From Nymphaea colorata (Eukaryota; Streptophyta; Magnoliopsida; Nymphaeales; Nymphaeaceae), in contig NC_045149.1 of assembly GCF_008831285.2 (NCBI RefSeq), positions 20,847,035 through 20,911,034 of the forward strand: a stretch of DNA of 64,000 nt, written 5' to 3'. Shown in pieces: positions 17,038 through 62,333 of the stretch. The notes under the pieces are model-generated. The model worked only from the letters and a program-made list of their open reading frames with translations. It had not been told where the DNA came from and did not search any database. Numbering within the stretch: position 1 is the first letter of the stretch; the number at the start of each line of letters is the position of its first letter. The position numbers and the translations under genes were made by a program.

Positions 17038-20000
17038 CTAATGATGATCATGTTGGACATACCGCAGGCCGCAGTATTTACATATAGCTGGTTCTTTAAG
17101 GTCAAGGCATATGAACTCAATCGGATGCCCAAGAGCTGGATTGGTATCTGCAAGCAAGAATCAAGAAGAAGATCAAAGTAAGATGCAATCAGAAGAAAAG
17201 ATGGTGCTAGGCAAGCTACAAGAGAAGTACCTTGACTAGATTGCTTCGTCTTTAATGATCCAGTTAATCAAAAGCTAAGTTCATGCAAGATACTATATTT
17301 AGAACAAGAAAGACTGGCATTACCTCCTTCACAGGCAACAATGCGTCCTTTGACTTTGATGGGTGGGACTTCATTAATTAACTCCATGGGAGATTTCCTA
17401 CTGGTGTCCTGCATGGATCAGAGAATCAGAAAACATAAGCAATATTATACAGGCATAGAGAACTAATCGCATGAAAATAAATGAAGCAGACACAACAATC
17501 AAGTTATCATTATTTATATAATGCAGTCATTGATACAGAACACATTTTTTCAACAAGGGCAACTCCTTTTCCCTAGAGACTAACTCCCGTGTTTACCTGT
17601 CAAGGTCCATAAACTCATTCGGCTTTCCAGCTTCTGTAGTCAGTTTATGAAGACCCTAAATTTGCTCGCAGCCTCACACAGATAAATCCTAAACTAACTG
17701 CTGATATCAGTTACATAATCAATCCAGCCAGTGATATTCTCTCATAAGAAACATGTTATGGCATTCGAAGAACTCAGCGATCATATCCTTGGAGTCAATC
17801 ATGGTTGGAGTTTGCGGTATCACATTACACACATTGAGAGGTGTATAACACTTCTTTGGTGTTTTGGTTGGAGAAATATTCTTCTCTTATTGTTACACAA
17901 CATAAGTTGTCTGCCATATATCAAGCTGGATACAGTTTTGGTTGCTATCAGACGGCTGAGAGAGCTTCAAGCTTGATATATCTCACAATCAGTACTCACT
18001 TTGCCTATGCAATTCTATTATTTCCTGAACATTTTCAGCATGTTCCTAATCTGCAGCAAAGTAAACGAGTGCAATGCACCTTGACTCATTTTCATAACAA
18101 CTGCTACAATCATCATACCAAAATATCTAATAATATGTTCTCTCTCTCTCTCTGAGAAATCTGGTAGTGTTTGAAAAAACAAGACCATGTCAAGGTAATT
18201 CAGGTTGGGAAAGAGTATACCTGTTTTCTGATTTTGAAAAAGTCATCCTCAAATATGGCAGTGGCATCAATAGGTTGTATACAGCCATCTAGAAGCACAA
18301 GGGCCCAAGGCTGGAGAATCAAGTATGTTGTGGTGTACTTCATTTACAACGTGGACAGTGCCTCAACATATTTTAGATTACAATGGAATGGAGATTGTGA
18401 GAAAGCAACTCAACCCAGATCGTCCATTATAAACATACTGAGAAGTTTGAAGAATCAAGTGTCAGTATAGAAATTTTGTCAGGCCAATTCACCTGAAGCC
18501 TCCACTGTTGATTCGTCTCATGTGAAATTAAGACCAGGGGCCAGTTTGAAAATAGGAGCTCTACCAAAGTAATTCTCAGAAACATGGACCACTGTCAGCC
18601 ACCAAAACATGTCTACTTAAATCTCTACAAGTGCTGCTCCTGAAGTCTAAGATGGCAAGGAAACAATTGTCTGTATCAGTTGTCTATTAGTTCATAATGA
18701 CAACTAGGACATAAAGCTGTTCTACATGCTCTAAGAAGTTAAATTACTAAATGCGCCCTTAAAAGTTTAGGAGCAGCAGGGACAAAAAGAAAGGAGTACA
18801 AAGACAGAGAACCGACCAACCTATACTGTCAGGCAGTTAAGGTTAAGCTTCTGATTCTCTCAAAAATCATAAACTGGAGAATCTTTTGGGGTTCCATAGC
18901 GTAGCACTACTCATGAGTAAATACAGGCTTACATAGGCTTAGTCACAACTATGTCCCGGAGGACCAGGATACTTGAAAGATAAAGTTCCCACTTCCATTT
19001 CAGCACATTGTTCTTTATCCATATCCAACAATATATATGCATTTTAATCATGTAGAATGACCAATATCACGGATACAACCAGTAGCTCATTAGACTAGCT
19101 GTCCATGAGTTTCTTGCAAGCTAAGATGCTTCCCCCTGAAGCAAGACTCAACATGTGGCAATGCAAATGATTCAGGTTTGAATCAGATCCAACATCTACC
19201 AAATTTGACTTCAACTGAATTATTGGCAATCAGATTCCAACACTATTTCTTAAAACCGAATTTGTATCCAAGTAGCATAGGATCTGACATTTGTATGTAC
19301 CTAGGTCGGACCTCAGTCAGATAACAGACTCGGGATTGGATATAGTTATGAAATTGTATACTGAATTTGAATCTGATTCGTGATTGGACTCAGATCCCTT
19401 TACTAGATACGACTAAAGGTTATGAAATATGATACTTTTCGTTTACAATCCCGCCTACAAGCATGGGTAGTAACTTTCCATCAGGCATGGCCTGAGAAAA
19501 TACATTCTTGTTGTGTGCTCGCCACATCAAGAACATCAAAGGTTATGCTTCAGCATAGAATAAAAATTTCAAAAACCAAAACATGGAGGAATTCGCAAGA
19601 AATAATCCAAAGGTTCACCATAGACTAAAAGTTTCAAAAACCAAAACAAGAAAGGGTCGATCAAAAATCAAATTAAACTGAAGTTAGGTTCAACATTTGT
19701 GTTTTTAATAGCATTAAGTATGGAACTCACCAATCAGTAATCAAATATCCAACTTCCTCCAATCCTTTTCACCTAAGGAGAAAAGAGGTAGAGAAAGGCA
19801 TAGGAAAGAACATTAGAATCTGCCTCTAACTAGGGCACCTCGTGTATTCAGCTTTAGGTTTCCAGATGCTCATTTTCACTTCATATATGTACTTTATTTC
19901 TATATACTGTCAAGAAGCAGGTTCTTATTATAAGCATGATATACATTTTGGATACTATTAAATGCACTTCCATAAACATGGGCATCCGAACAACTACCAT

Positions 20001-21936
20001 CAGGATTGGGAGGTTCTCGACAATGCCATTTACGCTTGTCAGTATATTTAGTAATCATAACTGCAACAAAAATAAATAAATAAATAACAATTTTCTTCAA
20101 TTGGAGAGGATACCAGGAGAACATTTGTCTCAACTTAAAATTCTATTTTCAACTCAACTAAAAATTCTATTCTCAAACCCATGTGCAGCTATTCAAATGC
20201 CAATTCGGAAAGCTATATAGAGTGATGTACTATGTTGGGTCTGGTGTTGGAGTATGTTCAGCTGAAATAGTTGACACACTCACCAGGCTTGGCACTACTA
20301 AACTTTAAAAAACATTCACTATCAGGTGTTGCGCGTGCAAATTAAGCATCAACGTCACACTCATGGAAGCAAGGAATCCCATGACTTATTCTAGTTGAAC
20401 TTTCAAAAAATATGCCTCATCTTTGTATGTGTGAGGAAAAAATTAATCAATATGATTTCAGCTGTAGCAAAGAGAAGGGTGTAGCAAGTGTGTCCCTGGA
20501 AAATAGACAAAAGAATAAGGATTATATGAAATATGAGATGTGCCAGATTAACCAAATAGAAAATTCTTCTGCTGAAAAGCTGGCCTCCATGTGAGTATGG
20601 GACTTCAAGTGGATGGGAGGGCCATGGGCATCATGCAGGTTGGCCATTCTGAACAGATCAATTATTTATCTGGTGGTCAGCTACATCAATCAAGCTCACT
20701 ATGCCATCCTAAGTTGCCCATACAAATAAGCATGATGGCCCGTTCTTTTTTTAGCATGTTTCAAGGAATGTCTAAATTTTAAGTAGCAAGTGATGGACAA
20801 TTTACAATTGAAACTCTCATGTGGCAAGAAATATTCAGAATGCAAAGCATAGAATCTTGTGTTAGCTCAGCATATCATCTTCAAATTGACAGGTAAAGTC
20901 AAGCTCTTAATAAGCATGTGCAGACCTGCCTTCAGTGTTTCATCAATGGATGCCATAAAGAAGTTGTCATGCTGAGTGAATTCCATCCAAAACAGCATGT
21001 TGTTTTGATAGCTGCTCTCATGCCCTTGACCACTAGAACTCAAGATGTACATCGTGACCTTAAGATTTGGGTTGCTATTCCACTAGAATGGAATATAATC
21101 TAGTGAAAGTGCAAGATTGTCGGAAGAATATCAGTTCACATGAGACTGTGTGGGACGGTGAACTGCATTTTAAAAAATTTATTTATTCATGAGTTCATTC
21201 CCGCTACAGGCACCAACGTAGTTGCTAGTTACATCAAGTCATGGTTAGAGTTTATTGTGTAACAGTAACACCATGTTCTCCGGATGACTATCTCTATCTG
21301 GGTAACTAATTGACTGCATTCAGTCTCTAAGGTGCGTGAATTACTTGTATTGAAAGGTTCCGAAGATCACCATTTTTTTGGAGCCTTGAAATGAAATGTC
21401 AGAGCATTTGAGTTTTTTTTAAGTAAAGTTTGCAATGGCTGTTCGCTCAAGAGGAGAACAGGAAACACATGAATCATACAACATCAAACACAAGACTTCG
21501 AACCCAAGAGTTAAAACTCGCTATGAACAAGAAAAGTAAGATATGCAATTAACAACTTGGGCATAATTTTATATTAATACTAATAAAACGAAAGAAAGAA
21601 AAGAGCAGGAGCGTAACAAAAAATAGCCCCACGAAAGGGAAGGAACAACTAATATTCGAACGTTGCAGAATCACCAAAAAACGAAAATCCACTAAGAAAA
21701 ACCAAAAAATGTCTAAATGGGCAGAAGGTAACACTGAAAGCCCCATCAAAAGTATAAGAAAATGGAGAAACAAATCTGTATTGGAAAGGGGAGAAGAAGG
21801 TAAGGACCTGCATCCACTTTGCGGTGTGGGCACTAACAAGGGACAGATTCCGAACCGAGCTCCGGGCGTACGACGGATCTAATCTCCTGAGATACGAAGA
21901 GAGAAGGAAAGACCCTAATTTCCTTCCGGAAGCCAT
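17038..21936 (-). CDS. NDUFS6: NADH dehydrogenase (ubiquinone) Fe-S protein 6, complex I 13-kDa subunit, mitochondrial
   Basis: This is an accessory zinc-binding subunit of mitochondrial complex I, located in the matrix arm and needed for N-module assembly. Exons in transcript order: 21936-21808, 17408-17324, 17147-17038, giving 324 nt and 107 residues. Exon 1 encodes the targeting peptide (MASGRKLGSF..., rich in Arg and Ser, few acids) and ends in KWMQ. Exon 2 carries SPMELINEVPPIKVKGRIV. Exon 3 starts with TNPALGHP and ends YCGLRYVQHDHH. The zf-CHCC zinc ligands are C69, H79, C94 and C97, all present. Phases 0 and 1 agree and the sites are GT-AG. Intron 1 is 4.4 kb, of which 3.8 kb, together with exon 1 and about 0.8 kb of upstream sequence, is duplicated at 39.3-44.0 kb. 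The nearer exon 1 is assigned here because it is contiguous with exons 2 and 3; the far copy has an identical exon 1 protein. Confidence 0.93.
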
Positions 21937-22731
21937 CGTTCAGAACAAGGGAAGAGGGAGCTTCTCCAATTTTCTGGTGAGGATGAGAGTTTTTTCTTAC
22001 GGCGGCAAGATGATTAATTTGCAGATGCGCATGCACTTCTTTGAAATTACATAAGTTACGCGGATTCCCGGGGATATTGTCGAACGCTTTGGGGGAGTAA
22101 GTAATCGGGTCGGACTGGGGTAGGATGCAAAAGGACAATGGTTTAAGACTCCGGGATTTGAACTCTTAGTATGCAAAGGATAATGGTCTGAATCTAGATC
22201 CGAATGGTTTACCTGATCTAATTTAATAAATAACATAGAAAAATAAATACCATCTGAGCAGGAGATATTAAATCTCTTAAACAATTTAACTCATCTGCTC
22301 AACTCAACCCATGACCAATGAACCCATAACCAATATGAGCCAAGTTTACATACATTTCTTGAAGCTAGAGCTTGAAATTAAGGCTGGACATCAGACTGGT
22401 CCGACAAGAAGTCAGAATTGGGCTAGGCCGCAACTTGGGCTCGACCCAACTGCCTGCAACCACATGTTCCCAACTCAACCCATGACCAATGTGTGACTCA
22501 TCTCCCCGCAGGTTTGCATCGGAATCCATGACCAATGTGAGCCAAGTTTCCTTCCTAACTTTCTTGGATTTAAAGTTTCAAATGAAGACCGGACATCAGA
22601 CCGGCCCGAGCCCGATAAGAAGTCAGGGTTCGACTAAGCCGCAACTTGGCTCGACCTTGAAACCTCATTCAACCTAGAAGCTTCTATGGAGTCTATTCCA
22701 TTGATATACAAGGGCTCGCTTTATTCCTAAG
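18002..22731. repeat. Segmental duplication, copy 1 (4.73 kb)
   Basis: This block matches 39321-44035 in direct orientation, 21.3 kb apart. I count about 23 substitutions and a few small indels: one CT unit near 18140, a 16-bp deletion in copy 2 corresponding to about 20468-20484, and 1-2 bp changes nearby. Identity is about 99.5%. It contains most of NDUFS6 intron 1, exon 1 and about 0.8 kb upstream. The match ends at ctttattcctaag. Confidence 0.95.
22300..22670. repeat. Imperfect tandem repeat upstream of NDUFS6
   Basis: Two diverged units of about 190 bp share the words aacccatgaccaatg, gagccaagttt, ggacatcagac, aagaagtcag and gccgcaacttgg in the same order. They lie 0.4-0.7 kb upstream of the NDUFS6 start and occur again in the second copy of the segmental duplication (about 43604-43974). 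Confidence 0.6.
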
Positions 22732-23729
22732 TGAAATGGGAACTGCTAGGCCTTGTATTGATGGGCAAGTCCCTTTCTTCTTCATTTCAAAACAAAACCC
22801 TATTTTTTCTCAAACATTCCAAAAAGCAAAATTATTTTCTAAGTTTTTAAATGATGTTAAACTTCATAATTTTAAACCAATTTTGCTTTGCAATAATGTC
22901 ATGAAGTTCAAGTTGCATTATGGTGAAGTGCGTAAGACCTATCAAGTGCAGAGTTATATCAAGTAATCAACAATGCTTTCTTGTTGGCAAAGTTCATCCA
23001 TGACAACTATCTCCTAGCCCACGACCCTTTTAGTCAGTGGTAGAGGAGGGAGATTAAGCTTCAAGGAGAGCTTGGTAGATAAAGTTATTATTGTTGTTTC
23101 TTCTGCATCCACGACCCTTTTAGTCAATGGTAGAGGAGGGAGATTATCCTTCCCCAAACGAGGATAAAGTGAAAGGTGATCCATTTATCTCCCCACCTTT
23201 TCTTACTATTGTAGGAAAGGTGACGAGCATCACAATTCGAAGGAAGGAAGGGCCTAGAAGGCTACCAAGGTAGGTGAGAGGTACAGATATCATTCGCTCC
23301 ATATGCTATCTTTATATGTTCTCTAAACTTCAAATGAAATCAATTGTTAACCTCAAACAAAAGCTTCAAGATTTTGAGGCTTCCATAGCCATAGGTATGA
23401 AAATCAGTGATGAGAAAGGTGAGCTAATGACCTTCAACACTTAAATTGTATCTACGCCAACGTTATGGAGAAGTGAAGTCGAGTCCCAGGTGTCTAGTTG
23501 ATGGGGAGGAATCATACATGTGTGGAAGGAGTTATACAGTAGCATCAGGTGGAATGTGGAATGGTTTGAAGGCCAAGTTTTGGCAGAATCAATGATGCAG
23601 ATCGCTACTGATTAATGACATTTCCAGTGAGGATTTCGTGATGTTCGTTTCTATCAAATGGAAAATCCTTCAGGTGGCTCATAGCAACTAAAGGCAGGTC
23701 CATTTCTTCAACAGTGTGAAGCCCCAGGT

Positions 23730-24080
23730 TGTGAATTCCATCCCAACACAGCCTACCAATCTGAGTTTTTGGAGTTGATACATAGACCAGGCAAATGGCT
23801 AACAAGGAAGAGCCTTCGGGAACCAGTAAGAAAGAAAAATCCCAAAGAATTCTGGAGGAGGACGATTTGGCTGGCAGGATCATATCCTTGGGCCTCGTGG
23901 TCTTTGGGAAGGGCGATTAATGATGGATAGTAATAGGTTGAAACTTTTGGAGTCTTCAATGGCCTCAATATATCATTGTTTTCGATCTGAGGATGAGATT
24001 AAAAGTCATTTGTTTCTTTTATTTAAAAAAAAAATTGGCATTCAAGGCCATACGGATGTTATCTTAGTTGAGGCCCTTAA
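23730..24080 (+). mobile_element. Possible LINE (non-LTR) 3' end remnant
   Basis: A plus-strand reading gives RLKLLESS followed by IYHCFRSEDEIKSHLFL. The spacing of C, acidic residues and HLF resembles the zinc-binding zf-RVT region that follows reverse transcriptase in plant LINEs. The expected first CxxC is incomplete and stops interrupt the surrounding sequence. I see no reverse-transcriptase core. Confidence 0.25.
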
Positions 24081-24645
24081 ATAGGTGTATGCACAAACAC
24101 TTTTTGGGGTTTCTCTTTCACCTGGTGGATCTAAACAAGGAATGGACTTAAGGCATGTTATGTTATGTCACCGCATCATCATCATGCATCCCTCGATCTT
24201 TGGAAAATTTGCACAGAGCATGTTTTGAAGCTTAATAACCGAGAAGAGGGTATTATAAGGGTGGTAAAGGACCGGCCGCAATCGGGAATCAGGGGTGAAG
24301 GATGCACCTGGGAACCAGGGATTGAAGTCGGCATTCATATTTGGCTTCTTAGCATTGTCAAGGGGAAAGTAACGTTACTTCCAACAATTTGGGGCCATGG
24401 AGAAAGTAACTGTTTGTTTGTTTCTATTCTATGAATTTATGGCAAGATTATAGCGGGTTCATAAATTATTAATACTGTAATACAATACATAAATCAGGCA
24501 GTAACAAGCTCTTTTTTATAGCAAACAGCCCCTTTGTGAACAATTAAATCATAAGACCGTAGACAAAATCAGCTAATATCCTTCTTATATGAGTCTCACG
24601 TCATTTGGCAAGATTCTACCCCTCCATAGTCTCACGTCATTTCTT

Positions 24646-24727
24646 CTTATATGGTAATCACGTCCTGTGCTGAATCAGATGTCATGTCTTCTTATATGGT
24701 AATCACGTCCTGTGCTGAATCAGATGT
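24646..24727. repeat. Two 39-bp direct repeats
   Basis: The stretch ttcttatatggtaatcacgt continuing through cctgtgctgaatcagatgt occurs twice, at 24646-24684 and 24689-24727. A related partial word (tcacgtcatttcttcttatatg) lies just before it. Confidence 0.85.
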
Positions 24728-25930
24728 GTAGCAAGCTTTTCCTTATGCTATATGCCTAAAATAAATCTTCGATACTACAAGTTATAGCATTGATCAATGA
24801 CAATTTAAACCAGACAAAGCTATCTACTAATCAGGTTAAATGAAAATCAGCAAGTATAGTGCGGCAGCCCAGTTGGTGTCTCCAAAAACAGAAACAGATA
24901 ACTTGTTTTTTTGGGGGTGAGTGGGAGCAGATCTCACACCACTTGAGAGCTGAAACCTCTCGTCTTCTCCTTGCCCTCCCTCAAGGTCCAGGGCAGCATC
25001 AGGGAGTGGGGAGGCAGTGCACCTTCAACTTGGTTATGCTCCTCACCCTCAAGAAATGGCGTAGTTACTGAATCAAAGGTCAAGCATTGACAAAATCTTG
25101 GTACCTGTTGTCAGATGATATTATTGCAAAGGTAATAATCAGGGAAGATTCATAGTCATAATTATGGGCTTTATGTTGTTTGAACCACAGTTGGTGGAAG
25201 GCTTTATGCTTCTTAAAAAGGGGGAAGCTTAAAGTAACTTGCTTTTCGTTTGTGTGAGCCTCATCTCATTTGTAAAATGTAAGTTATTTTTCATTGCTTC
25301 TTGCATCCATTTCGCAAGCCGATAACTAGGTCCAGGCATATTACATGGCTATTCATATATTAAAATAAAAACAGCTGATCACATGGTCAAATTACTCCAG
25401 TTGGCTAGGGGATTGACCCTTAAACTTTGAAGTTAAAGCCCAATACTCGAAGTTACGTGGCATTGGTCCAAGCTTGATTACCCAAAGAAAAAAATTTAAC
25501 GAGTTTGGCCAAATTTTATTCCCAACTGCAGATAGAGTCGCGTGCAACGGCGGCTAAATCTTTCACGTTTTGAATATAGATCAGGTCTAAACTGCCAGTG
25601 ATATGGTCAAAATGGTGAACGCCTTGAACGGACGATTACTGTATATAGAGAAGATAATGCAGATTCCACTTATTTTAAAGTTATTACACGTTTGATTTCA
25701 CAAGAATGAGATCTCATATGCACTACTGATTTTTCCGGCCATCTGTATCACTGATACGCATTACTCCATCTACAAGGGCCGTTTCGGATCCCTCCTTGTA
25801 TGTATGGCTTTCTTGCCAATCTCATGGGCAAGGGACGATACAAAACCGTACCAATGGCAAGACCGCTAGTTAGTTTTTCACTATCCTTGGCCTTCAACTA
25901 ACTTGAGGCATCTAAAGCTTCGCAAATAGC

Positions 25931-27045
25931 TCAATTGGTTCGCTTCCTCTTGCCTGACTTATGCACCAACTTAGATTCCATATTGGACATTGAAAATGGC
26001 GACCGCCTCTTGGCAAACACATTTGCTCTGCTATCTAAGTCATCTTCTTCGCTTTCATCAACAACATTAGATTCTTCCAACTCGTCAACTCGTTTCTTCT
26101 CAGACTCCAACTTCTTTTGTAATTTTCGCTCAACTGGGTTACAGGATGCTGCTACTTTTGAGTGGGGAACAAACTTTGCTCCCAAACCCAACCTTTAAAA
26201 ATGATGGGAAATATTTAAACAGACAGATCGGAAAAATGGAAAGGATAGTTTAAACAGTGCCCACCTTGATGGTCGACCCTTCATTTCCTCTTCACAAGGT
26301 TTATCCTCATCTGCTCCTCCACTCATGCTCTTCACCCACCCTTGGGCCTAAATGAAAATTAATAAAATGAAAAAAAAAAAGAAACAATTAGATATCGTTT
26401 TAAGGGAGGATAAGTAAGCAGACAACAAGATCTAAATATTCAAGTAAAACAGGTGGCTTAAATCTAATTGACTTTAATCTCATGTCTTCAGAACAGTCAG
26501 TGTTACACGAGACAGCAGTTTTAGCTATACTGCTCAAGGAATCACAATCAGCTAACAGATGATCAGATAAATAATTATGACGCCATGACCATGAATATCA
26601 TTTCTGTATGTGATTGCCACTGACAACTCAAAGAGATTTTGGTCTCATTTTCAACAGACAAAGAGTTTATACTTAATAATGGGAGATACTGAGATGACCC
26701 AACTTTGGAGCCTGTACCTCACAGGAATTCATTCACCTAATCACAAATCTTACCTTGTCCAGAACTTGGATATGACAAGCCAAGGAGATGGATGTGATTT
26801 TAGAGCCCAAATCCATGATTGTAACCAACATAATGCCTATTTCACTGCCCTTTTCAACTAATATAAGTGGCATACTGGAAATTACTAGTTGACAAGAAAG
26901 ATCAGATCTTAAACAATGGTAGAACTTGGCAAATACAAGGGCTTTTCCAGGATCTGGCATCTCAAGCAGAACTACAACATTGCAAAAGAAACAAAGGATA
27001 ACTGAAGAAGCCAGGAGGAAAAGAACGTCTGTATTTGTGTGTGTA

Positions 27046-27084
<39 letters not shown>

Positions 27085-28843: not shown

Positions 28844-29145
28844 GTTCCCCTACATATACCGTCAAAGGGACCCTTTTGGTAAACCAGAGAATGTAATCTG
28901 CCAAGAGCCCACAAGCACATTCAGTACAGCTAAAAAATGACCAAGAAAACAATGCTATGTGATTTGAACCATAAAGCGACTTTCAAATAAATGTATAACT
29001 CCATCAGTGAAAATTTTGCAGACATTGCATTAATTTCACTTTTAATTGCCTTGAGAATTTGTTGTTGTTGCATTATGATATGTGCTATGTCACATAGGTG
29101 CGGGTGCCGGAGCGGCACATTAAGGGGCGGAAGTGCGGCGAGGGT

Positions 29146-29167
29146 ATTTATTATTATTATTATTATT

Positions 29168-29200
<33 letters not shown>

Positions 29201-29201
29201 A
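29146..29201. repeat. TTA and TA microsatellite
   Basis: A (TTA)n run at 29146-29168 is followed by a (TA)n run at about 29173-29201. Confidence 0.9.
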
Positions 29202-29766
29202 CAAAATTGTCTATAAACAACAAAATTTACAAATTTACACTCTCCACATTTGGTGCTAAGTAAAATACTAAAATCTAAATCAGTACATTGCTCAAAATAC
29301 CTTCAAATATTCTGTGCTAACAGTCATTGCAGTAAAACAAATCAAATTATGGACACTATAGAAAACAACAAAAGGCAGCAGAAATTAATCATAAAAACAT
29401 GCTAAACAAGTAACCATTAAACAGCATATAACAGTCGTTGCAGCAAAACAAAAAACTGATCTAGGTGAAAAACATTACCACTTTAAGAGTAAAACTCAAG
29501 CATGTATAGTGTGTACTATGAAAAGAACGATAGAACAACAACATATTTCAGAAAATAGTCATTAAATCCTGAACATCACAAAAAAGAACTAAAAATCCGT
29601 GAAACACGCTGCAAATATGAGCAAACGCCAAATGGAGCTGCTGCAATCATCCCCAAAAGAAAAAGGCGACCAAAACAATAATCGAATTAAAGAGAAGTAT
29701 CAGTGAAAGACAAAATACACAAGGGCCAGCAAGAAATCGACTAGATGGATCGTAGACTCGCAGTTG

Positions 29767-31291: not shown

Positions 31292-31360
31292 GACGAGTTT
31301 GGGAAATTTTTAGGGTTTGTGAAGTTCCAACCCTAATATCTCTCACCGCTACCATCGCCA

Positions 31361-31530: not shown

Positions 31531-32062
31531 AATACCACTGTCGCTGTTTCCGCCGCCGCCGGTGTCACTCTTTGCGCCATCGCCATCGCAGCCACTCTTG
31601 CGGCGTCGCTCTTGCGCCGTTGTCCCTTGCGCCACTGCCTTTTGCGCCGTAGTCTTGCTTCCCGAAGAAGAAAGAAGATATGCGTGCTTAGGCGCTTCCT
31701 AAGCTTGCCTCCCCCTATTCATGTCACTTCCTAGGGGTCTTTTGCAAATCCGGTGAAGTGCATCCGCCTCTTACCTGCAATATATTGCTTGGTTGATCTT
31801 TGATTCCATCTTCTTGTTTTTGTTTGGCGCCCACCGTGCAAGAAGAGGTGGCTGGTCCGTGACTTGGTAGAGGACGTAAAGGAGGAGAGGAGCGTAACTT
31901 GAGGATTGCCTCAACGTCTGCCGGCGCTCCGACGATCGTTTCCCCCAATCGACATTCTGTTCACTCTTGGGGCTGATTGGGAATCCGGATATTACTGCCC
32001 GTTGGTGCTCTCTGTTGTCATCGGTGCCTCTCTTGTTGCCTCCTGTTGGACTATCTGTGATT

Positions 32063-35000
32063 ATGGCAGCTTCTTCATCTATAGACGTTATGGCGGATTG
32101 CCGTATGGGAGAGTGGATCATTGATAGTGGCGCTACTCACCACATGACCGGCGATCCTAAGGTCTTTCATGGGTATAAGCTTTCATCAGGAAAGGATCGT
32201 GTTTCCCTTGCCGATGGTTCATCTATCTCTGTGGCTGGAAAAGGGAGTCTCCCACTTTTGAACAAGTTCTTAGTCCACAATGCTCTACATGTTCCTCATA
32301 TTCCCTTGAATCTCTTGTCGGTTAGCAAGATCACGAAGGAGTTAAATTGCGAACTTATATTTTCCGCTGATCGCTGTGTTATGCAGGACTTGGTGACAGG
32401 GAAGAGGATTGGGATTGGCCTAGCTTCTGACGGGCTCTATCGTTTACCTATGCGTACTGCTCAGGCTCTCATGACGGCAGTCAGCCAAGCCACGAAGAAT
32501 AGAGAGGACTCCCTTCAGTTGCTTCTACGGTGGCATGAGCGCCTTGGACACTTGCCTTTTGGCCTTCTTAGACAGTTGTTTCCTGATATATGTTCCAGGT
32601 TAGATATGACTATGGTGTCTTGTGATGTCTGTCACCTGGCCAAACATGTTAGGGCTTCGTACCCATTGTCTAGCCATCGGTCTAATGAGGTATTTGCCAT
32701 GATTCATTCTGATGTGTGGGGGCCTGCAGGGATTCCTTCTTGTCATGGTTTTCAATATTTTATCACCTTTATAGATGATTATTCTCGTAATACTATTGTC
32801 TACTTGCTAAAAGACCGTAGTGAAGTTCCTACTGTCATAGAGACTTTCATTGCCTATGTGGAAACTCAATATGGAGCATCTGTTAAGACATTTCGATCTG
32901 ACAATGCTCGAGAGTATATGTGCCAGTCTGTTGATAGCTTCTTTCGAAAAAAGGGAATTGTTCATGAGACTTCCTGTAGTTATACCCCTCCTCAAAATGG
33001 AGTTGCTGAACGAAAAAATCGTCAGTTATTGAATATGACTCGGGCTCTTCTTTTTCAACGTCATGTTCCAAAAAAGTATTGGGGGGATGCTGTGTTGACC
33101 AGTGCGTATCTTATAAACCGGTTGCCTAGTCGCGTGTTGAATGGGAAGACGCCTCACTCTCTGTTACCGGGGACTCGTGAACCTTTCTCTCTTCCACTCA
33201 GAGTTTTTGGTTGTGTTTGCTTTATTCACAACCATAGTCCTCACATTAAAAAGCTTGATCCAAGATCTATTAAGGGCATTTTTTTAAGGTATTCTCCCAC
33301 TCAAAAAGGGTACAAGTGTCGAGACCCTTCCACTGGTCGGGCCTATGTTACCAAAGATGTCACTTTCCTTGAACGTGTTTCCTATTTTGGTGAGAATCCT
33401 CTTCAGGGGGAGTACTCTATGTCACGGGAAGAGTATTCTCCGAGTCAGGAAATTCAGTTTACAGATTTTTTGGACTACAGGCGTGACTCCGTTGGTCCAT
33501 CTAGTGAGGTGCATGAACAAGAGAAAAATGGTCCATCTAGTGAGGTGCATGAACAGGAGAAAAATGGAGAGTGTTCCACTGAGGCAGAAGAGAAGTGCAA
33601 TCGTTTATTTGGGCAAGTTTACTCTAGGCGAAGAGTTTGTACAGATGAGATGACAGGTGGTGAGAATGCTACTCCCAATCCAATTAGTCCTTCCCTGGAT
33701 GACCCAAGTCGTGCGCAGAAGCAACCTGTTGAAGAAGAGATTCAGACTGTTGCTGCTAGTGAAGAGCTTCCCATCGCCCTGCGAAAGGGTGTCAGGTCAT
33801 GTACTCAACATCCTATTGGTAACTTTGTTTCATATTCTAGACTGAGCAAGGACTACAAATGCTTTGTATCTTCTCTTTCTTTGACTATGATTCCCAGGAA
33901 TGTTGCTGAGGCTCAGAGTGATCCTAAGTGGACCTATGCTATGCAAGAAGAGATGGAAGCCTTGCGAAGAAACATGACATGGGAAGTTGTAAAGATTCCT
34001 GAGGCGGCTCACTTGGTTGGATCTAAGTGGGTCTACACCATCAAGTACAAACCAGATGGGAGTGTTGAAAGATACAAAGCTCGTCTTGTGGCCAAGGGGT
34101 TTAGTCAGAAATATGGGATTGATTATTTGGAGACCTTTGCTCCTGTTGCGAAGATGAAGACGGTCAGAGTCATTATCTCTTTAGCTGTGATGAAGGAGTG
34201 GAAGATGTACCAACTTGATGTCAAGAACGCATTTCTCAATGGAGACCTTGAAGAGGAAGTATATATGTGTATGCCTCCAGGATATGAGGAACCTGGAAAA
34301 TGTTGCAAGCTAAGGAAGGCTTTATATGGGCTCAAGCAATCTCCTCGAGCATGGTTTGAACGACTCAGACTTGTCATGAGACAATGTGGATACCATCAAG
34401 GGAATGGAGATCATACACTTTTTGTGAAGAGAAATAAGCAAAAGGTTACTATTCTGTTGGTATATGTTGATGATATGATTGTCACAGGTGATGATGAAGA
34501 TGAAATAATGAAGTTAAAGAAACTGTTGGCGATCGAGTTTGATCTTAAGGACCTTGGTAAGTTGAAATACTTCCTTGGCATAGAAATTGCTAGGTCTGGG
34601 ACTAGCCTTGTGCTAAATCAACGGAAGTACACTCTAGATTTGTTAAAGGAGACTGGGAAACTAGGGTGTAGACCAGCTTCTACTCCTCTAGATGCTGGCC
34701 ATAAGCTAAGTCTGAGAGACGGGGAGCCACTCTGTGAAGAGGCAAAAAGAAGATATCAATGTCTTGTAGGGAAGTTAATTTACCTTACTCTCACTAGACC
34801 TGATATTACCTTTGCTGTGAATGTGATGAGCCAGTTCATGCATGCTCCCACGGATGCCCACTTGAAGGCTGTTGACAGGATCTTGTGCTACTTGAAGAGG
34901 AATCCTGGCAAAGGTCTCTTATATGTCAAGCAAGACACTCTTGGGATTGAAGGTTATTCAGATGCAGACTGGGCAGGCTGTATTGACACTAGGAGGTCCA

Positions 35001-35446
35001 CCTCTGGCTATTGTATTTATTTGGGAGGGAATCTCATAGTGTGGAGAAGTAAAAGGCAAGATGTTTGTTCGCGTTCCAGTGCTGAAGCAGAATACAGAGC
35101 TGTTGCTATGGGAGTTTCTGAGCTTTTGTGGCTGAAAGTATTGTTGACTGATATTGGTATAAAAGTTGAAGAACCAATGAAGATGTATTGCGATAACAAG
35201 TCTGCAATTAACTTGGCCAACAACCCTGTGCTTCATGACAGAACAAAGCATGTTGAGATTGACCGACATTTCATTCGAGAGAGAATTGATGCTAAAGAAC
35301 TTATACTTCCTTACATGAGATCTGAAGACCAAACGGCTGATGTTCTGACGAAGCTTTATCTTCGACCTCATTTGAGAGAAATGTATCCAAGTTGGGCATG
35401 TTTGATATGTATGCCCAACTTGAGGGGGAGTGTTGAAGTATGTTAG
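32063..35446 (+). CDS. pol: Copia pol polyprotein (protease-integrase-reverse transcriptase-RNase H)
   Basis: An uninterrupted frame of 1127 residues from the first ATG; it is open without an ATG back to 31967. The protease motif DSGATHHMTG is at residues 21-30. The pre-integrase zinc region HERLGH...CDVC is at about 158-190. The integrase catalytic residues are D217, D280 and E316 (HSDVWGP, SDNAREY, NGVAERKN). The reverse transcriptase has KARLVAKGFSQ, QLDVKNAFLNGDL and YVDD at 801-804. RNase H begins near 965 (YSDADWAG) and includes SSAEAEYRA and DNKSAI. Every catalytic motif I checked is present. A 12-residue unit is duplicated in the integrase-RT linker. The stop lies 11-16 bases inside the 3' LTR, so the frame crosses the polypurine tract. 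Without gag in cis, mobility would need capsid from another copy. Confidence 0.95.
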   Translation: MAASSSIDVMADCRMGEWIIDSGATHHMTGDPKVFHGYKLSSGKDRVSLADGSSISVAGKGSLPLLNKFLVHNALHVPHIPLNLLSVSKITKELNCELIFSADRCVMQDLVTGKRIGIGLASDGLYRLPMRTAQALMTAVSQATKNREDSLQLLLRWHERLGHLPFGLLRQLFPDICSRLDMTMVSCDVCHLAKHVRASYPLSSHRSNEVFAMIHSDVWGPAGIPSCHGFQYFITFIDDYSRNTIVYLLKDRSEVPTVIETFIAYVETQYGASVKTFRSDNAREYMCQSVDSFFRKKGIVHETSCSYTPPQNGVAERKNRQLLNMTRALLFQRHVPKKYWGDAVLTSAYLINRLPSRVLNGKTPHSLLPGTREPFSLPLRVFGCVCFIHNHSPHIKKLDPRSIKGIFLRYSPTQKGYKCRDPSTGRAYVTKDVTFLERVSYFGENPLQGEYSMSREEYSPSQEIQFTDFLDYRRDSVGPSSEVHEQEKNGPSSEVHEQEKNGECSTEAEEKCNRLFGQVYSRRRVCTDEMTGGENATPNPISPSLDDPSRAQKQPVEEEIQTVAASEELPIALRKGVRSCTQHPIGNFVSYSRLSKDYKCFVSSLSLTMIPRNVAEAQSDPKWTYAMQEEMEALRRNMTWEVVKIPEAAHLVGSKWVYTIKYKPDGSVERYKARLVAKGFSQKYGIDYLETFAPVAKMKTVRVIISLAVMKEWKMYQLDVKNAFLNGDLEEEVYMCMPPGYEEPGKCCKLRKALYGLKQSPRAWFERLRLVMRQCGYHQGNGDHTLFVKRNKQKVTILLVYVDDMIVTGDDEDEIMKLKKLLAIEFDLKDLGKLKYFLGIEIARSGTSLVLNQRKYTLDLLKETGKLGCRPASTPLDAGHKLSLRDGEPLCEEAKRRYQCLVGKLIYLTLTRPDITFAVNVMSQFMHAPTDAHLKAVDRILCYLKRNPGKGLLYVKQDTLGIEGYSDADWAGCIDTRRSTSGYCIYLGGNLIVWRSKRQDVCSRSSAEAEYRAVAMGVSELLWLKVLLTDIGIKVEEPMKMYCDNKSAINLANNPVLHDRTKHVEIDRHFIRERIDAKELILPYMRSEDQTADVLTKLYLRPHLREMYPSWACLICMPNLRGSVEVC
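33494..33565 (+). repeat. In-frame 36-bp tandem duplication in copia pol
   Basis: Two 36-bp units (33494-33529 and 33530-33565) differ by one base (caa/cag) and encode GPSSEVHEQEKN twice in the linker between integrase and reverse transcriptase. Confidence 0.95.
35419..35430 (+). other. Polypurine tract of the copia element
   Basis: cttgagggggag immediately precedes the 3' LTR, the standard plus-strand priming site. Confidence 0.9.
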
Positions 35447-35686
35447 ATGGGTATTGGGACCGGGTCCGGATCCGTATCCGATCCAACTTGTAGCCCTTGT
35501 TGGGCATTATTTAAGTTGTGTAACCCTAATCCTTATAAAGTGAATGAAAGACAAAGGAGAGGGAAAGTCTGGCGGCTAGTGGGCACCGGCTCCTCCTCAT
35601 TCGTGGTTTTTTTCCTCTTGTTGAGGGTTTTTCCACGTTACATCGTGATCGTTGTTTCTCTTCCTCTTCTTGTTCGTGTTTCTACA
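35431..35686 (+). repeat. 3' LTR of the copia element
   Basis: 256 bp, identical to the 5' LTR as read, ending GTTTCTACA and followed by the target-site copy ACCAC. Confidence 0.95.
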
Positions 35687-35715
35687 ACCACCAAGGCGGC
35701 AGAGCGATTTCTTAC

Positions 35716-35870
35716 CTGAAAACCCCAAACCACGTAGCCTTGAAAACATAACACAAACAACCAAGAGTGAACTACTTTCAGAACAGAAGCCAATGGCATC
35801 GGAAAACATAACGCACCTTTCAAAGTATGGAGTAAAAGGCCAAAACTATCTGCAGATTTGCCGCTTGCGA
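35716..35870 (-). other. Candidate first exon next to the copia insertion
   Basis: On the minus strand, a leader-like stretch ends in gggttttcag with GTAAGA at 35715-35710, a good splice donor. The sequence interrupted by the copia element continues at 31017 as T-rich, intron-like DNA. A short frame starting MFSRLRGLGFS reaches the donor. I could not connect it to a downstream coding exon; the DUF3245-like gene, which needs an upstream leader exon, is one candidate. Confidence 0.25.
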
Positions 35871-35899
35871 AGTGGCAGTTGGGGGAGAGAGGTCTGCGG

Positions 35900-36180
35900 A
35901 AGCTAGGGTCAAGGGCAGAAGAGAGCTGCTGCGGAAGACGGAAGAGATGGCGTAAACAATATTACCCCTCTTTCTTAGCTGGGGACGAGGGCAGAAGAGA
36001 GCTGCTGGGGAAGACGGAAGAGATGGCGCCTCCTCTTTCCCCCTCTTTCTTCCTTTCGCACGGATGGAGAAAGGGAGCGGCTGCTTTCTTCCTTTCGCAC
36101 GGACGGAGAAAGGGAGCGGCTGCGGAAGACGAGTGTGAAGGCGTCCCTTCTTTCTTCCTCTCGCACGAGACCAATGCCCT
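35900..36180. repeat. GA-rich internally repeated stretch
   Basis: The segment gggcagaagagagctgctg through ggaagacggaagagatggcg occurs twice (near 35919 and 35991). A 38-bp unit starting ttcttcctttcgcacgga also occurs in tandem (near 36050 and 36089). It lies directly against the left end of the Harbinger-like element and resembles the G/A-rich part inside that element near 39.0 kb. Confidence 0.6.
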
Positions 36181-36560
36181 TTAGGTAGTGTTTGATGGGC
36201 AGGTAACCTGGAATTGGAAATATATTTCTGGAAATATATTTCTTGGAATAAAGGAATGAGAAAAATCTTTCCGATTCTCATTTTGGTGTGTGTGTGATGA
36301 CTGAGAAATATATTTCCAGAAATATATTTCTGTGTTTGATGATACAGAAATATATTTCCAGAAATATATTTCTGTGTTTGATAATAAGGAAACATATTTC
36401 CATATTTACATAATCTTTATATAGTTTCTTAAACACATGATGAATATAGAAATCAAGCACGTTAATGTTGTCGAATTTGAAAGCAATAATTTGTCCTTTC
36501 ACTTTCATATCTTGAATCTAGAATGCAGTTTTCAGAACAAGTATGTTTTCTATATGGCAT

Positions 36561-36561
36561 T

Positions 36562-36601
<40 letters not shown>
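36561..36601. repeat. CT/AT compound microsatellite
   Basis: A (CT)n run passes into (AT)n inside element A. Confidence 0.9.
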
Positions 36602-38616
36602 GCATCTATATTAGAGATGACAATAGATAAGACATAAGGTGTTCTCTATTCATGTTCTGATCAGTACTAACAATACATTATAAGATATAAGATGAGGCAT
36701 TATCCTGTTGAACATCCACACATTCCACTCAAAAGCATAAAAATTAATTCAAGCAAGGATGGACCTTGTAAAAGTGTCAATGATAATCTGAAAGTTGAAA
36801 ATCACACCACGTGCCAATTGATAATGTGATACCACTTAACAAATCCACTGTCCTATATCTGAGAGAAACATAGAAGAATCGTTCATACAGGCGCACGAAT
36901 GGGAAACTAAGAAATGTTGGAAGTATAGGAAATTAAGAAATGGGGCCTTGCCTTACTGTTGTTCTTGTGACACTGGCTTCAACTGAGAGGGGAAAATAAA
37001 AAAAGATCCAGTATGAGCAGCAGAAAAAAGTTGTAAACAGACAAATCCAAGTGTCAACAAGCAGATGTTGTGCGTTCATATAAAGCACATAAAGTTGTGT
37101 GTCTCAAAGCCAAAAAAAAGCCATTTTACTGTATTTACAACTACAGATGCAGGCTTGATGTGTAATGCATATAGGAGGCCATAAGTTGAATGGACATGGT
37201 TTGCTGTCATAAGTAGAACAGCGTCGATGGCAAGAAGTCATGTGTGCCCAGCCAACATGTTAGAGTCACTACCAGTACACTAGACGAGCACATGGGCAGG
37301 CATAATAACCTGGTCACCATGCTGAGAGAGATGCTCCATCACAAAAGAACGCTCAGTGCTGGACAACCCACAGTCCAATCAGCTGCATCCGAATGGAGTG
37401 AATCTATGCGGAACTGAACCAGAAACATGCAACAGTTGATGGCTGATGCACTCTCCACCCAACGTTGAGACTTCTTATCGAACAGGGGATACAGTAGGAC
37501 ACGAATTGCCAAAAACTATAAAATTTTGGGATATTTTTCCAAATCTGGCATAAACTGTTGATTAGGATGGGAAGAAGAAAACTGGATCCACTTCCGCGGA
37601 ACATGAAACCACACTGGGTAGCAAATTCAACTGAATTTCATTTCCTACGGGTCTAACATTGTACTCATGTCTCTGCTTTCAATGTTCCACCCTACTGCAG
37701 CAAGTAGGCTGTGGAACCATTTGATTTTAGCTAGTCCCAAGTAAATCATATGGAACACAACGGAAACCACCAATATTAAAAGGACAGGAATTGGCTCATC
37801 TCCGCTAGCCTGCATACTATCAAACAAATTGAGGTAATAGGCTCATGGTGCAACTCACATGTATCAATCCTTTGTCTTGCAATTGTTTCTAGCAATTCAC
37901 TTGTGTTAAGAGGAGCGTACCTGAAAAGTTGAGAAAAAGTAGATGCCAATGAATGTCAACATACTAGAGTTTAATAAACACTTAAGAAGCTGAACTAACA
38001 AGTAATACTTGGAACCTATCTGCAAATGACAAGCTCAAGTAGAAATAATAGTGAATTCATTTACAGGAAATTATCGTTTCGGCAGAACCTTCAAGTGAAG
38101 ATATCTGATCTACCAACATCCTTTTCATATTCTTTAACTAATTCTTGAGTATATTCAGAAGGAGCAGAACATATGAAAATTAAAAAGGCAATCATTATTG
38201 AAGCATAAACATAAGTAATCATATAAAGATGAAAAATGTTAAGAATAGATCCAAAGTTTCAAGTTTGTCAATCCTTCTTGTCTACATAAGAAGCTGGATT
38301 CAATTCCAACCCAATTTACAAGAAGAAGAAAAGAACAAAGCAGCATGCTGTAATGAGATGCCAAAAAAAACAAAACAAAACAAAACAAGACAAATGTAAA
38401 ACCAAAAAAAGAGGAGAAGAAGAACAAAAAAAACCAGGTGCGAGCCTGTTGCATGCCTACCTTCGAGCGGCCAAGATGGCGGTCCCACCAGATCCCCTGC
38501 CAGCAATCGATAGGCTGGTGACGCTAAGAAGGGGAGACTCACCTATCACTGGTGGAGAGAGCTATAGCTCTACAAGATGCGGTGTCGTGAGAGAAGGTGG
38601 TAGCAACACAAAGGAG

Positions 38617-38682
38617 AAGACGGAGAAGAGAGTAAGGGGAGCAGACGGAGAAGAGAGTAAGGGGAGCAGACGGAGAAGAGAG
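38617..38682. repeat. 26-bp GA-rich tandem repeat
   Basis: The unit gacggagaagagagtaaggg plus gagca is present about two and a half times inside element A. Long open frames across it on both strands are low-complexity by-products. Confidence 0.8.
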
Positions 38683-39320
38683 TCAGAGAGGCCAACGACG
38701 ATGGCCAACCTGACCTGCTCGGCCGACTTCCTGGGTCCCCTGCTGGGGGCCTCCGCAAATGCCACCACAGCCGAGTTGCTGGGGAGAGAAGAAGGGGGGA
38801 GAGAGTGTTCTCCTCTTTTTTTTTTTTTTTTTCTTTTCTCCTCTATGAAAAGAACGGCAGGGCCAGCAAAAGCAAGCAAAGATCGAGGAAACGAGGGAGA
38901 GTAAAAATGTCAAAACCCTCACCTTATTCATGAGCTGATGAGGGAATCCTTCGAGTGGGGAAGCTTGTGGCAATAGGAAGAAGGCTGCGGCTTCACGGCG
39001 CGTGAGGACGAAGAGCGTTGCGTGAGGACGAAGAGGGCTGCTGCTGCGAGAGGCGAGTGAGGGAAGAGCAGCGATAAGGACGAAGAGCACTGCGGAGGAG
39101 AGGAGGCAAAACGCGAAACGCGACCGTGCCCTAACGGTCCAAAAAATAATTCCAGAAACATATTTCCACCCCTCCGGGTGGAATAATGTTTCCGGAAACA
39201 TTATTCCGAAATCGACCTCAACGGTCGAAAATATAATTCCGCGTTTGATACGCAAGAATTTTTTTTTAAATTTGAAATATTATTCCGTTGCTACAGTGTA
39301 ATACCTGCCCATCAATTCTA

Positions 39321-42300
39321 TGCCTATGCAATTCTATTATTTCCTGAACATTTTCAGCATGTTCCTAATCTGCAGCAAAGTAAACGAGTGCAATGCACCT
39401 TGACTCATTTTCATAACAACTGCTACAATCATCATACCAAAATATCTAATAATATGTTCTCTCTCTCTCTGAGAAATCTGGTAGTGTTTGAAAAAACAAG
39501 ACCATGTCAAGGTAATTCAGGTTGGGAAAGAGTATACCTGTTTTCTGATTTTGAAAAAGTCATCCTCAAATATGGCAGTGGCATCAATAGGTTGTATACA
39601 GCCATCTAGAAGCACAAGGGCCCAAGGCTGGAGAATCAAGTATGTTGTGGTGTACTTCATTTACAACGTGGACAGTGCCTCAACATATTTTAGATTACAA
39701 TGGAATGGAGATTGTGAGAAAGCAACTCAACCCAGATCGTCCATTATAAACATACTGAGAAGTTTGAAGAATCAAGTGTCAGTATAGAAATTTTGTCAGG
39801 CCAATTCACCTGAAGCCTCCACTGTTGATTCGTCTCATGTGAAATTAAGACCAGGGGCCAGTTTGAAAATAGGAGCTCTACCAAAGTAATTCTCAGAAAC
39901 ATGGACCACTGTCAGCCACCAAAACATGTCTACTTAAATCTCTACAAGTGCTGCTCCTGAAGTCTAAGATGGCAAGGAAACAATTGTCTGTATCAGTTGT
40001 CTATTAGTTCATAATGACAACTAGGACATAAAGCTGTTCTACATGCTCTAAGAAGTTAAATTACTAAATGCGCCCTTCAAAGTGTAGGAGCAGCAGGGAC
40101 AAAAAGAAAGGAGTACAAAGACAGAGAACCGACCAACCTATACTGTCAGGCAGTTAAGGTTCAGCTTCTGATTCTCTCAAAAATCATAAACTGGAGAATC
40201 TTTTGGGGTTCCATAGCGTAGCACTACTCATGAGTAAATACAGGCTTACATAGGCTTAGTCACAACTATGTCCAGGAGGACCAGGATACTTGAAAGATAA
40301 AGTTCCCACTTCCATTTCAGCACATTGTTCTTTATCCATATCCAACAATATATATGCATTTTAATCATGTAGAATGACCAATATCACGGATACAACCAGT
40401 AGCTCATTAGACTAGCTGTCCATGAGTTTCTTGCAAGCTAAGATGCTTCCCCCTGAAGCAAGACTCAACATGTGGCAATGCAAATGATTCAGGTTTGAAT
40501 CAGATCCAACATCTACCAAATTTGACTTCAACTGAATTATTGGCAATCAGATTCCTACACTATTTCTTAAAACCGAATTTGTATCCAAGTAGCATAGGAT
40601 CTGACATTTGTATGTACCTAGGTCGGACCTCAGTCAGATAACAGACTCGGGATTGGATATAGTTATGAAATTGTATACTGAATTTGAATCTGATTCGTGA
40701 TTGGACTCAGATCCCTTTACTAGATACGACTAAAGGTTATGAAATATGATACTTTTCGTTTACAATCCCGCCTACAAGCATGGGTAGTAACTTTCCATCA
40801 GGCATGGCCTGAGAAAATACATTCTTGTTGTGTGCTCGCCACATCAAGAACATCAAAGGTTATGCTTCAGCATAGAATAAAAATTTCAAAAACCAAAACA
40901 TGGAGGAATTCGCAAGAAATAATCCAAAGGTTCAACATAGACTAAAAGTTTCAAAAACCAAAACAAGAAAGGGTCGATCAAAAATCAAATTAAACTGAAG
41001 TTAGGTTCAACATTTGTGTTTTTAATAGCATTAAGTATGGAACTCACCAATCAGTAATCAAATATCCAACTTCCACCAATCCTTTTCACCTAAGGAGAAA
41101 AGAGGTAGAGAAAGGCATAGGAAAGAACATTAGAATCTGCCTCTAACTAGGGCACCTCGTGTATTCAGCTTTAGGTTTCCAGATGCTCATTTTCACTTCA
41201 TATATGTACTTTATTTCTATATACTGTCAAGAAGCAGGTTCTTATTATAAGCATGATATACATTTTGGATACTATTAAATGCACTTCCATAAACATGGGC
41301 ATCCGAACAACTACCATCAGGATTGGGAGGTTCTCGACAATGCCATTTACGCTTGTCAGTATATTTAGTAATCATAACTGCAACAAAAATAAATAAATAA
41401 ATAACAATTTTCTTCAATTGGAGAGGATACCAGGAGAACATTTGTCTCAACTTAAAATTCTATTTTCAACTCAACTAAAAATTCTATTCTCAAACCCATG
41501 TGCAGCTATTCAAATGCCAATTCGGAAAGCTATATAGAGTGATGTACTATGTTGGGTCTGGTGTTGGAGTATGTTCAGCTGAAATAGTTGACACACTCAC
41601 CAGGCTTGGCACTACTAAACTTTAAAAAACATTCACTATCAGGTGTTGTGCGTGCAAATTAAGCATCAACGTCACACTCATGGAAGCAAGGAATCCCATG
41701 ACTTATTCTAGTTGAACTTTCAAAAAATATGCCTCATCTTTGTATGTGTGAGGAAAAAATTAATCAATAAATGATTTCAGCTGTAGCAAAGTGTGTCCCT
41801 GGAAAATAGACAAAAGAATAAGGATTATATGAAATATGAGATGTGCCAGATTAACCAAATAGAAAATTCTTCTGCTGAAAAGCTGGCCTCCATGTGAGTA
41901 TGGGACTTCAAGTGGATGGGCAGGGCCATGGGCATCATGCAGGTTGGCCATTCTGAACAGATCAATTATTTATCTGGTGGTCAGCTACATCAATCAAGCT
42001 CACTATGCCATCCTAAGTTGCCCATACAAATAAGCATGATGGCCCGTTCTTTTTTTAGCATGTTTCAAGGAATGTCTAAATTTTAAGTAGCAAGTGATGG
42101 ACAATTTACACTTGAAACTCTCATGTGGCAAGAAATATTCAGAATGCAAAGCATAGAATCTTGTGTTAGCTCGGCATATCATCTTCAAATTGACAGGTAA
42201 AGTCAAGCTCTTAATAAGCATGTGCAGACCTGCCTTCAGTGTTTCATCAATGGATGCCATAAAGAAGTTGTCATGCTGAGTGAATTCCATCCAAAACAGC

Positions 42301-44035
42301 ATGTTGTTTTGATAGCTGCTCTCATGCCCTTGACCACTAGAACTCAAGATGTACATCGTGACCTTAAGATTTGGGTTGCTATTCCACTAGAATGGAATAT
42401 AATCTAGTGAAAGTGCAAGATTGTCGGAAGAATATCAGTTCACATGAGACTGTGTGGGACGGTGAACTGCATTTTAAAAAATTTATTTATTCATGAGTTC
42501 ATTCCCGCTACAGGCACCAACGTAGTTGCTAGTTACATCAAGTCATGGTTAGAGTTTATTGTGTAACAGTAACACCATGTTCTCCGGATGACTATCTCTA
42601 TCTGGGTAACTAATTGACTGCCTTCAGTCTCTAAGGTGCGTGAATTACTTGTATTGAAAGGTTAAGAAGATCACCATTTTTTTGGAGCCTTGAAATGAAA
42701 TGTCAGAGCATTTGAGTTTTTTTTAAGTAAAGTTTGCAATGGCTGTTCGCTCAAGAGGAGAACAGGAAACACATGAATCATACAACATCAAACACAAGAC
42801 TTCGAACCCAAGAGTTAAAACTCGCTATGAACAAGAAAAGTAAGATATGCAATTAACAACTTGGGCATAATTTTATATTAATACTAATCAAACGAAAGAA
42901 AGAAAAGAGCAGGAGCGTAACAAAAAATAGCCCCACAAAAGGGAAGGAACAACTAATATTCGAACGTTGCAGAATCACCAAAAAACGAAAATCCACTAAG
43001 AAAAACCAAAAAATCTCTAAATGGGCAGAAGGTAACACTGAAAGCCCCATCAAAAGTATAAGAAAATGGAGAAACAAATCTGTATTGGAAAGGGGAGAAG
43101 AAGGTAAGGACCTGCATCCACTTTGCGGTGTGGGCACTAACAAGGGACAGATTCCGAACCGAGCTCCGGGCGTACGACGGATCTAATCTCCTGAGATACG
43201 AAGAGAGAAGGAAAGACCCTAATTTCCTTCCGGAAGCCATCGTTCAGAACAAGGGAAGAGGGAGCTTCTCCAATTTTCTGGTGAGGATGAGAGTTTTTTC
43301 TTACGGCGGCAAGATGATTAATTTGCAGATGCGCATGCACTTCTTTGAAATTACATAAGTTACGCGGATTCCCGGGGATATTGTCGAACGCTTTGGGGGA
43401 GTAAGTAATCGGGTCGGACTGGGGTAGGATGCAAAAGGACAATGGTTTAAGACTCCGGGATTTGAACTCTTAGTATGCAAAGGATAATGGTCTGAATCTA
43501 GATCCGAATGGTTTACCTGATCTAATTTAATAAATAACATAGAAAAATAAATACCATCTGAGCAGGAGATATTAAATCTCTTAAACAATTTAACTCATCT
43601 GCTCAACTCAACCCATGACCAATGAACCCACAACCAATATGAGCCAAGTTTACATAAATTTCTTGAAGCTAGAGCTTGAAATTAAGGCTGGACATCAGAC
43701 TGGTCCGACAAGAAGTCAGAATTGGGTTAGGCCGCAACTTGGGCTCGACCTAACTGCCTGCAACCACATGTTCCCAACTCAACCCATGACCAATGTGTGA
43801 CTCATCTCCCCGCAGGTTTGCATCGGAATCCATGACCAATGTGAGCCAAGTTTCCTTCCTAACTTTCTTGGATTTAAAGTTTCAAATGAAGACTGGACAT
43901 CAGACTGGCCCGAGCCCGATAAGAAGTCAGGGTTCGACTAAGCCGCAACTTGGCTCGACCTTGAAACCTCATTCAACCTAGAAGCTTCTATGGAGTCTAT
44001 TCCATTGATATACAAGGGCTCGCTTTATTCCTAAG
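39321..44035. repeat. Segmental duplication, copy 2 (4.72 kb)
   Basis: A direct copy of 18002-22731. Its left edge lies five bases from the broken right terminus of Harbinger-like element A. Its right edge runs from ctttattcctaag into unrelated AT-rich DNA. Copy 2 has one CT unit fewer, a 16-bp deletion and about 23 substitutions relative to copy 1. Confidence 0.95.
43112..43240 (-). pseudogene. Duplicated, orphan NDUFS6 exon 1
   Basis: This exon encodes the same 43 residues as exon 1 at 21936-21808, including the whole mitochondrial targeting peptide. It keeps the GT donor and the same 0.8 kb upstream, so it may be transcribed. Exons 2 and 3 are not present in the copy. The next NDUFS6 exons on this strand are 26 kb away, beyond the copia element, the DUF3245-like gene and the original exon 1. 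I treat it as a non-functional fragment, although it could splice to new downstream exons. Confidence 0.85.
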
Positions 44036-62272: not shown

Positions 62273-62333
62273 GTGGATGATGGGCGTCAGGCGGTGCCAT
62301 CGGCAGAGGCGGGGGGACGTGGGGAGGTGGCCT

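Follow-up and report, generated by a model that had tools for sequence, protein, structure and literature searches.

A direct duplication of the NDUFS6 promoter and first exon in Nymphaea colorata, probably a scar of double-strand-break repair

Introduction

A 4.7-kb piece of a chromosome of the water lily Nymphaea colorata, carrying the 5' end of a gene that we take to be NDUFS6 (complex I subunit), is present twice in direct orientation. The locus raises the question of how the second copy arose and whether it could act as a promoter and first exon in its new place. The DNA between the copies, a segment known from elsewhere in the genome plus two transposons, bears on the origin of the duplication. 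We analysed a window of 64,000 nucleotides (C12:20,847,035-20,911,034, where C12 is contig NC_045149.1); unless a contig or locus is named, positions are those of the window. Copy numbers were obtained from searches of the whole assembly (407.8 Mb, 783 contigs).

Results

The duplicated block

Self-comparison of the window revealed one long direct pair, copy A at 17999-22731 and copy B at 39318-44035, with 23 mismatches and 4 gap openings in 4,736 alignment columns. Alignment by MAFFT gave 23 substitutions, including one at the extreme edge (18001), together with four indels (2, 2, 16 and 1 nt); 4,692 of the 4,715 ungapped columns were identical, a divergence of 0.49%. The duplication had been described, in an earlier note made from the sequence by eye, as lying at 18002-22731 and 39321-44035 with about 23 substitutions and about 99.5% identity. 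It is real in the assembly, the alignment beginning 3 bp further left with one mismatch, and both estimates agree with the counts. The 5' end of NDUFS6 has thus been duplicated in direct orientation and fairly recently, as had been proposed. At an assumed rate of 7e-9 changes per site and year, the divergence of 0.49% corresponds roughly to 0.35 million years, which is to be read as an order of magnitude only.

Copy A, read on the minus strand, contains NDUFS6 upstream sequence, exon 1 (21808-21936; 129 nt, 43 codons, ending in phase 0 with donor CAG/GT) and most of intron 1. Exon 2 (17324-17408) and exon 3 with the stop codon (17038-17147) follow on the same strand just left of A. The gene of A is complete: its spliced protein of 107 aa matches zf-CHCC (PF10276, E 4.5e-15), and a search for motifs that we presume to be those of plant NDUFS6 found them in it. 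Copy B is the equivalent of A on the same strand, with upstream sequence, exon 1, donor and intron 1 sequence; exons 2 and 3 are absent, just as the earlier note had it. Exon 1 of B (43112-43240) is identical to that of A with the donor intact, and so are 321 bp around it (21780-22100 in A, including exon 1 and the GT donor), so that the protein level is indeed unchanged. In the assembly, a protein search found exon 1 twice, exon 2 once and exon 3 once. Nucleotide queries gave two copies for the promoter and exon stretch of the block, two full copies and four weak partial matches for its intron stretch, and one copy for 17000-18010 with exons 2 and 3. The parent is copy A, the one that adjoins exons 2 and 3.

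The block had also been viewed as a mobile cassette. This was not borne out: each of the two block stretches has only two full copies, no transposon ends were seen on the block, and at one block edge end joining to a truncated transposon has left a scar. Inspection by eye showed neither terminal repeats nor a Helitron-type hairpin. A mobile gene-capture element of the pack type, which needs bounding terminal repeats and several loci, was rejected for a block with two full copies only; capture of this type by the neighbouring PIF-like element was rejected as well, as that element lies beside the block and not around it. Within the upstream end of the block, an imperfect repeat of about 136 bp (75%) is located at 22320-22446 and 22522-22656.

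Rfam and tRNA searches of the window gave no matches. NDUFS6 shares the window with an ATAD3-like gene (52103-57234, minus strand; matches to ATAD3_N and AAA), whose product is presumably another mitochondrial protein. Two open frames at 8783-11701 (minus strand) look by eye like exons of a secretory carrier membrane protein, an assignment that we assume; they gave no Pfam match.

Nucleotide differences between the copies

The 23 differences between A and B comprise 8 transitions and 15 transversions, 11 of which are of the A/C or T/G type. Tested against a ratio of 1:1, 8:15 gave p 0.21; tested against 2:1, it gave p 0.003. This spectrum was dismissed as a special feature, since other repeat pairs of the genome are also rich in transversions. 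Transitions and transversions numbered 21:24 between the PIF-like element and its relative L027, 135:147 between 13 right ends of such elements and that of L007, and 35:26 between L005 and L006. The right ends were taken from 14 of the 20 loci L007-L026. Of the other six, four (L009, L012, L014 and L026) were not used because of their orientation, L015 because it matched in part, and L021 for no good reason. The pair L010/L011 was also excluded, its alignment having taken in N and non-matching flanks. Transversion-rich differences look common in this genome. At five of the six C/T differences A has C and B has T, and the two G/A differences split 1:1, which hints that B may be methylated, with too few differences for a claim.

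Segment I and the transposons between the copies

A and B are separated by 16.6 kb, which consist of a segment here called I (22732-36183; 8.8 kb without the Copia element inside it) and two transposons. The block thus forms a direct repeat flanking DNA known from elsewhere. A further copy of I lies inverted and 16 Mb away at C12:4,889,459-4,898,276 (hereafter C12:4.89 Mb) and matches from 22729-22732 to 36183, the Copia element excepted. The right flank of A is therefore not local DNA. The two copies of I differ by 170 substitutions in 8,594 aligned columns (2.0%). At C12:4.89 Mb the sequence runs on beyond both ends of I, with no long similarity to the window there. One stretch adjoining I at that locus (L050:184-812) has an 84% relative on C10:14377713-14378347 (L069); L069, which covers 1.5 kb on each side, gave no match to I.

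Three queries from I gave long matches only in the window and at C12:4.89 Mb, for the left end among the matches listed. The middle part was found in these two copies alone, and the right end in both copies plus 12 partial rows. The left end gave both copies in full and 39 partial rows to a repeat of about 100 bp (best 40 of 206). Apart from the two full copies, this repeat (22737-22838) occurs at no fewer than 38 diverged sites, with one extra row, and it shares the motif GATGGGCARGT with the PIF-like element.

On the minus strand, I carries the last two exons of a gene, at 26265-26347 and from 26192 to the stop codon at 25931-25933. The gene weakly resembles DUF3245 (E 0.0013; 19.7 bits, below the Pfam cut-off of 26.4), and both copies of I keep the reading frame of these exons open, their C-termini differing slightly.

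The first transposon is a Copia LTR retrotransposon inserted in I (31023-35686, plus strand). Its 256-bp LTRs are identical, its target-site duplication (TSD) is ACCAC, and its site is empty in the copy of I at C12:4.89 Mb (locus L050); it is young. The second, at 36184-39315, belongs to a family with terminal inverted repeats, a 3-bp TWA target duplication and multiple copies; these are features of the PIF/Harbinger superfamily, to which it presumably belongs. It begins with the terminal inverted repeat GGTAGTGTTTGATGGGCAGG behind a left TSD of TTA (36181-36183); the site is unfilled in the other copy of I. On the right, where B starts, the element lacks its terminal 8 bp, ACACTACC, and the right TSD.

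This truncation was recognised by comparison with other copies of the element. A 200-bp query from its right end gave 58 rows, namely the window, 39 other places and 18 short inner matches; the query covers the best 40 of 263 candidates, so that the places number at least 39. Among the 39 listed places, 32 end at the base equivalent to 39315, one ends a base later and six end elsewhere. Eleven of the 15 other plus-strand loci compared continue exactly with ACACTACC, and four have variants or a partial match; of four minus-strand loci, one right end was visible (L028). The closest copy among the matches listed, L027, is a complete element (GGTAGTGTTTGATGGGCAGG...CCTGCCCATCAAACACTACC) that TAA flanks at either end. 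The ends of a stretch at 61829-63000 resemble those of the element (71-76% over 100-170 bp), perhaps as a diverged relative.

Junctions and right flank

At the junction of A and I, the block end and the other copy of I have 3 bp in common (AAG, 22729-22731), which is weak evidence by itself. The junction of the PIF-like element and B reads CATCAA-TTCTA-TGCC, with the filler TTCTA at 39316-39320. Filler and neighbouring bases together form CAATTCTAT, which occurs in the window, both strands searched, only at the junction (39313) and inside the two block copies (18010 and 39329). A random 5-nt filler would have a probability of about 0.0016 of continuing a CAA primer within the initial 40 bp of the block, or 0.026 under a looser criterion, both probabilities having been framed post hoc with the junction already known. 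Microhomology and templated filler are thus found at the junctions, AAG at one and TTCTA at the other.

The homology of B to A stops at the exact base where I interrupts A. Beyond this base lies the right flank of B, R (44036-44286), for which no second copy was found in the assembly. R is the probable ancestral right flank of the block. Given this common edge, the adjacency of B and R is probably old, and I together with the PIF-like element probably represents an insert between 4.7-kb direct copies of its target. The shared edge is expected if B and R are native neighbours and would be a coincidence if B had been copied later from the DNA of A and I.

Discussion

Origin of the duplication

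The duplication is probably the scar of a complex double-strand-break repair, in which foreign DNA was joined between chromosome ends that overlapped by 4.7 kb. The ancestral order would have been exons 3 and 2, the block and R. Two ends, from sister chromatids or homologues, would have met, one stopping at 22731 and the other beginning near 18002 in intron 1. They would have been joined, presumably on one molecule, via a relative of the segment at C12:4.89 Mb with the PIF-like element at its right end. The join of A and I may have used the 3-bp microhomology; at the join of the element and B, the last 8 bp of the element would have been lost and a short filler copied from within the block, in the style of polymerase-theta end joining. 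I received the Copia element as well. The start of I at the right edge of the block and the single-copy state of R and of exons 2 and 3 support this model, as do the second copy of I 16 Mb away with its continuous surroundings, the shared edge of A and B, the truncated end of the PIF-like element and the filler motif.

A simple single event is opposed by the fourfold difference in divergence between I (2.0%) and A/B (0.49%; Fisher p 1.5e-13). Either the copy of I at C12:4.89 Mb was not the straightforward donor of a recent event, or the events took place at different times. That copy is also without the PIF-like element, which must have been in place when the join with B formed, and so it probably did not donate I directly, although the element may later have been excised precisely from C12:4.89 Mb. 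This argument about the donor eases the conflict of ages and does not prove break repair.

The same age order would fit two separate events, in which I with the PIF-like element was placed beside A long ago and a later break at the end of the element was filled by a 4.7-kb copy of A. We consider this unlikely, as B must then have stopped by chance at the border of A and I and there joined unique DNA. The shared edge is accounted for by an illegitimate exchange between two haplotypes, only one of which had I and the PIF-like element between A and R; A and B would be former alleles, and their divergence of 0.5% is allele-like. The 404 bp adjoining I differ more than the remainder (6/404 against 16/4,310, p 0.009, in a region picked post hoc and with the edge mismatch excluded from the 16). 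However, haplotypes of the age of I would be expected to have diverged by about 2% in the absence of intervening recombination, and the block queries of the assembly returned no further copy as a possible second haplotype, which makes such an exchange rather improbable. An assembly artefact, in which both haplotypes of a heterozygous locus were placed one after the other, would have the same geometry, and 0.5% could be heterozygosity. The word heterozygosity does not occur in the main text of the N. colorata genome paper (PMC7015852), which describes an assembly made from PacBio RSII reads with Canu. The window contains no N, and a false join would have been made nearly without overlap, yet the junction has a filler that matches the block beside a truncated transposon. 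We regard an artefact, too, as rather improbable. The layout finally resembles that of maize alleles produced by alternative transposition of reversed Ac ends, in which a composite insertion, a transposon with donor flank, separates the copies of a tandem direct duplication. Precise ends with target-site duplications are needed for this mechanism, and the right end here lacks 8 bp and the TSD and has filler instead, so that such an origin is hardly credible.

Comparison with known systems

Duplications at repaired breaks, filler copied from nearby and duplications with insertions of a transposon plus flank are already described. Tandem-duplication insertions at repaired breaks are said to be short and adjacent. 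The break-repair reading of our locus shares with the patch-mediated insertions, as far as outlined by Vaughn and Bennetzen (2014), the direct duplication at a repaired break, but here it measures 4.7 kb and about 12 kb of foreign DNA lie between the copies (Copia not counted). The maize tandem direct duplications with composite insertions, in the account of Zhang et al. 2014 (PMC4270019), likewise have a transposon and donor flank between the copies and end-joining junctions with microhomology, whereas 8-bp target-site duplications border the transposon ends in maize and the element here lost 8 bp of its end. The chimeric maize gene p2/p1, as far as reported in PMC2686159, shows, as here, a short stretch of filler derived from neighbouring sequence where ends were joined; in maize, DNA was deleted and two genes were fused, while the event here duplicated a gene start. 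Microhomology and templated inserts at junctions are attributed to polymerase-theta end joining in the portion of PMC5730883 on induced breaks in mouse cells, whereas the pathway suggested here is drawn from one junction. In the open-access literature searched we found no report of a first-exon duplication of plant NDUFS6, or of a Nymphaea segmental duplication linked to a transposable element or double-strand break.

Possible function of copy B

B retains a promoter, a start codon, the targeting peptide and a splice donor. Most likely it is a passenger that carries a promoter and first exon but lacks the remainder of the gene, and the function of NDUFS6 stays with A. Since A follows downstream of B in the same orientation, NDUFS6 exon 2 itself is one obvious splice partner: a transcript running leftwards from B would cross the PIF-like element, I and A and then reach exons 2 and 3. 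Splicing of its exon 1 to exon 2 would span a 25.7-kb intron and leave the protein unchanged. Such an mRNA would resemble the normal one, exon 1 and the 164 bp compared upstream of it being identical in the two copies, whereas the intron of B differs from that of A at 42889, 42937 and 43015. Unspliced, B encodes 95 residues. Exon 1, ending in phase 0, joins in frame to the phase-0 acceptor at 26347 of the I-borne gene, giving a fusion of 157 residues. We think it very unlikely, judging from the sequence, that B works as a second promoter, whether for a distal first exon of NDUFS6 or for such a mitochondrially targeted fusion. New mitochondrial proteins from the exon 1 copy, the use foreseen in the earlier note, would be speculation.

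What looks like a simple duplication can be an insertion that duplicated its target. The locus offers a recent and readable case in which break repair and transposons would have placed a complete promoter and a transit-peptide exon upstream of new sequence, and such a placement is the raw step assumed in models for the gain of mitochondrial targeting.
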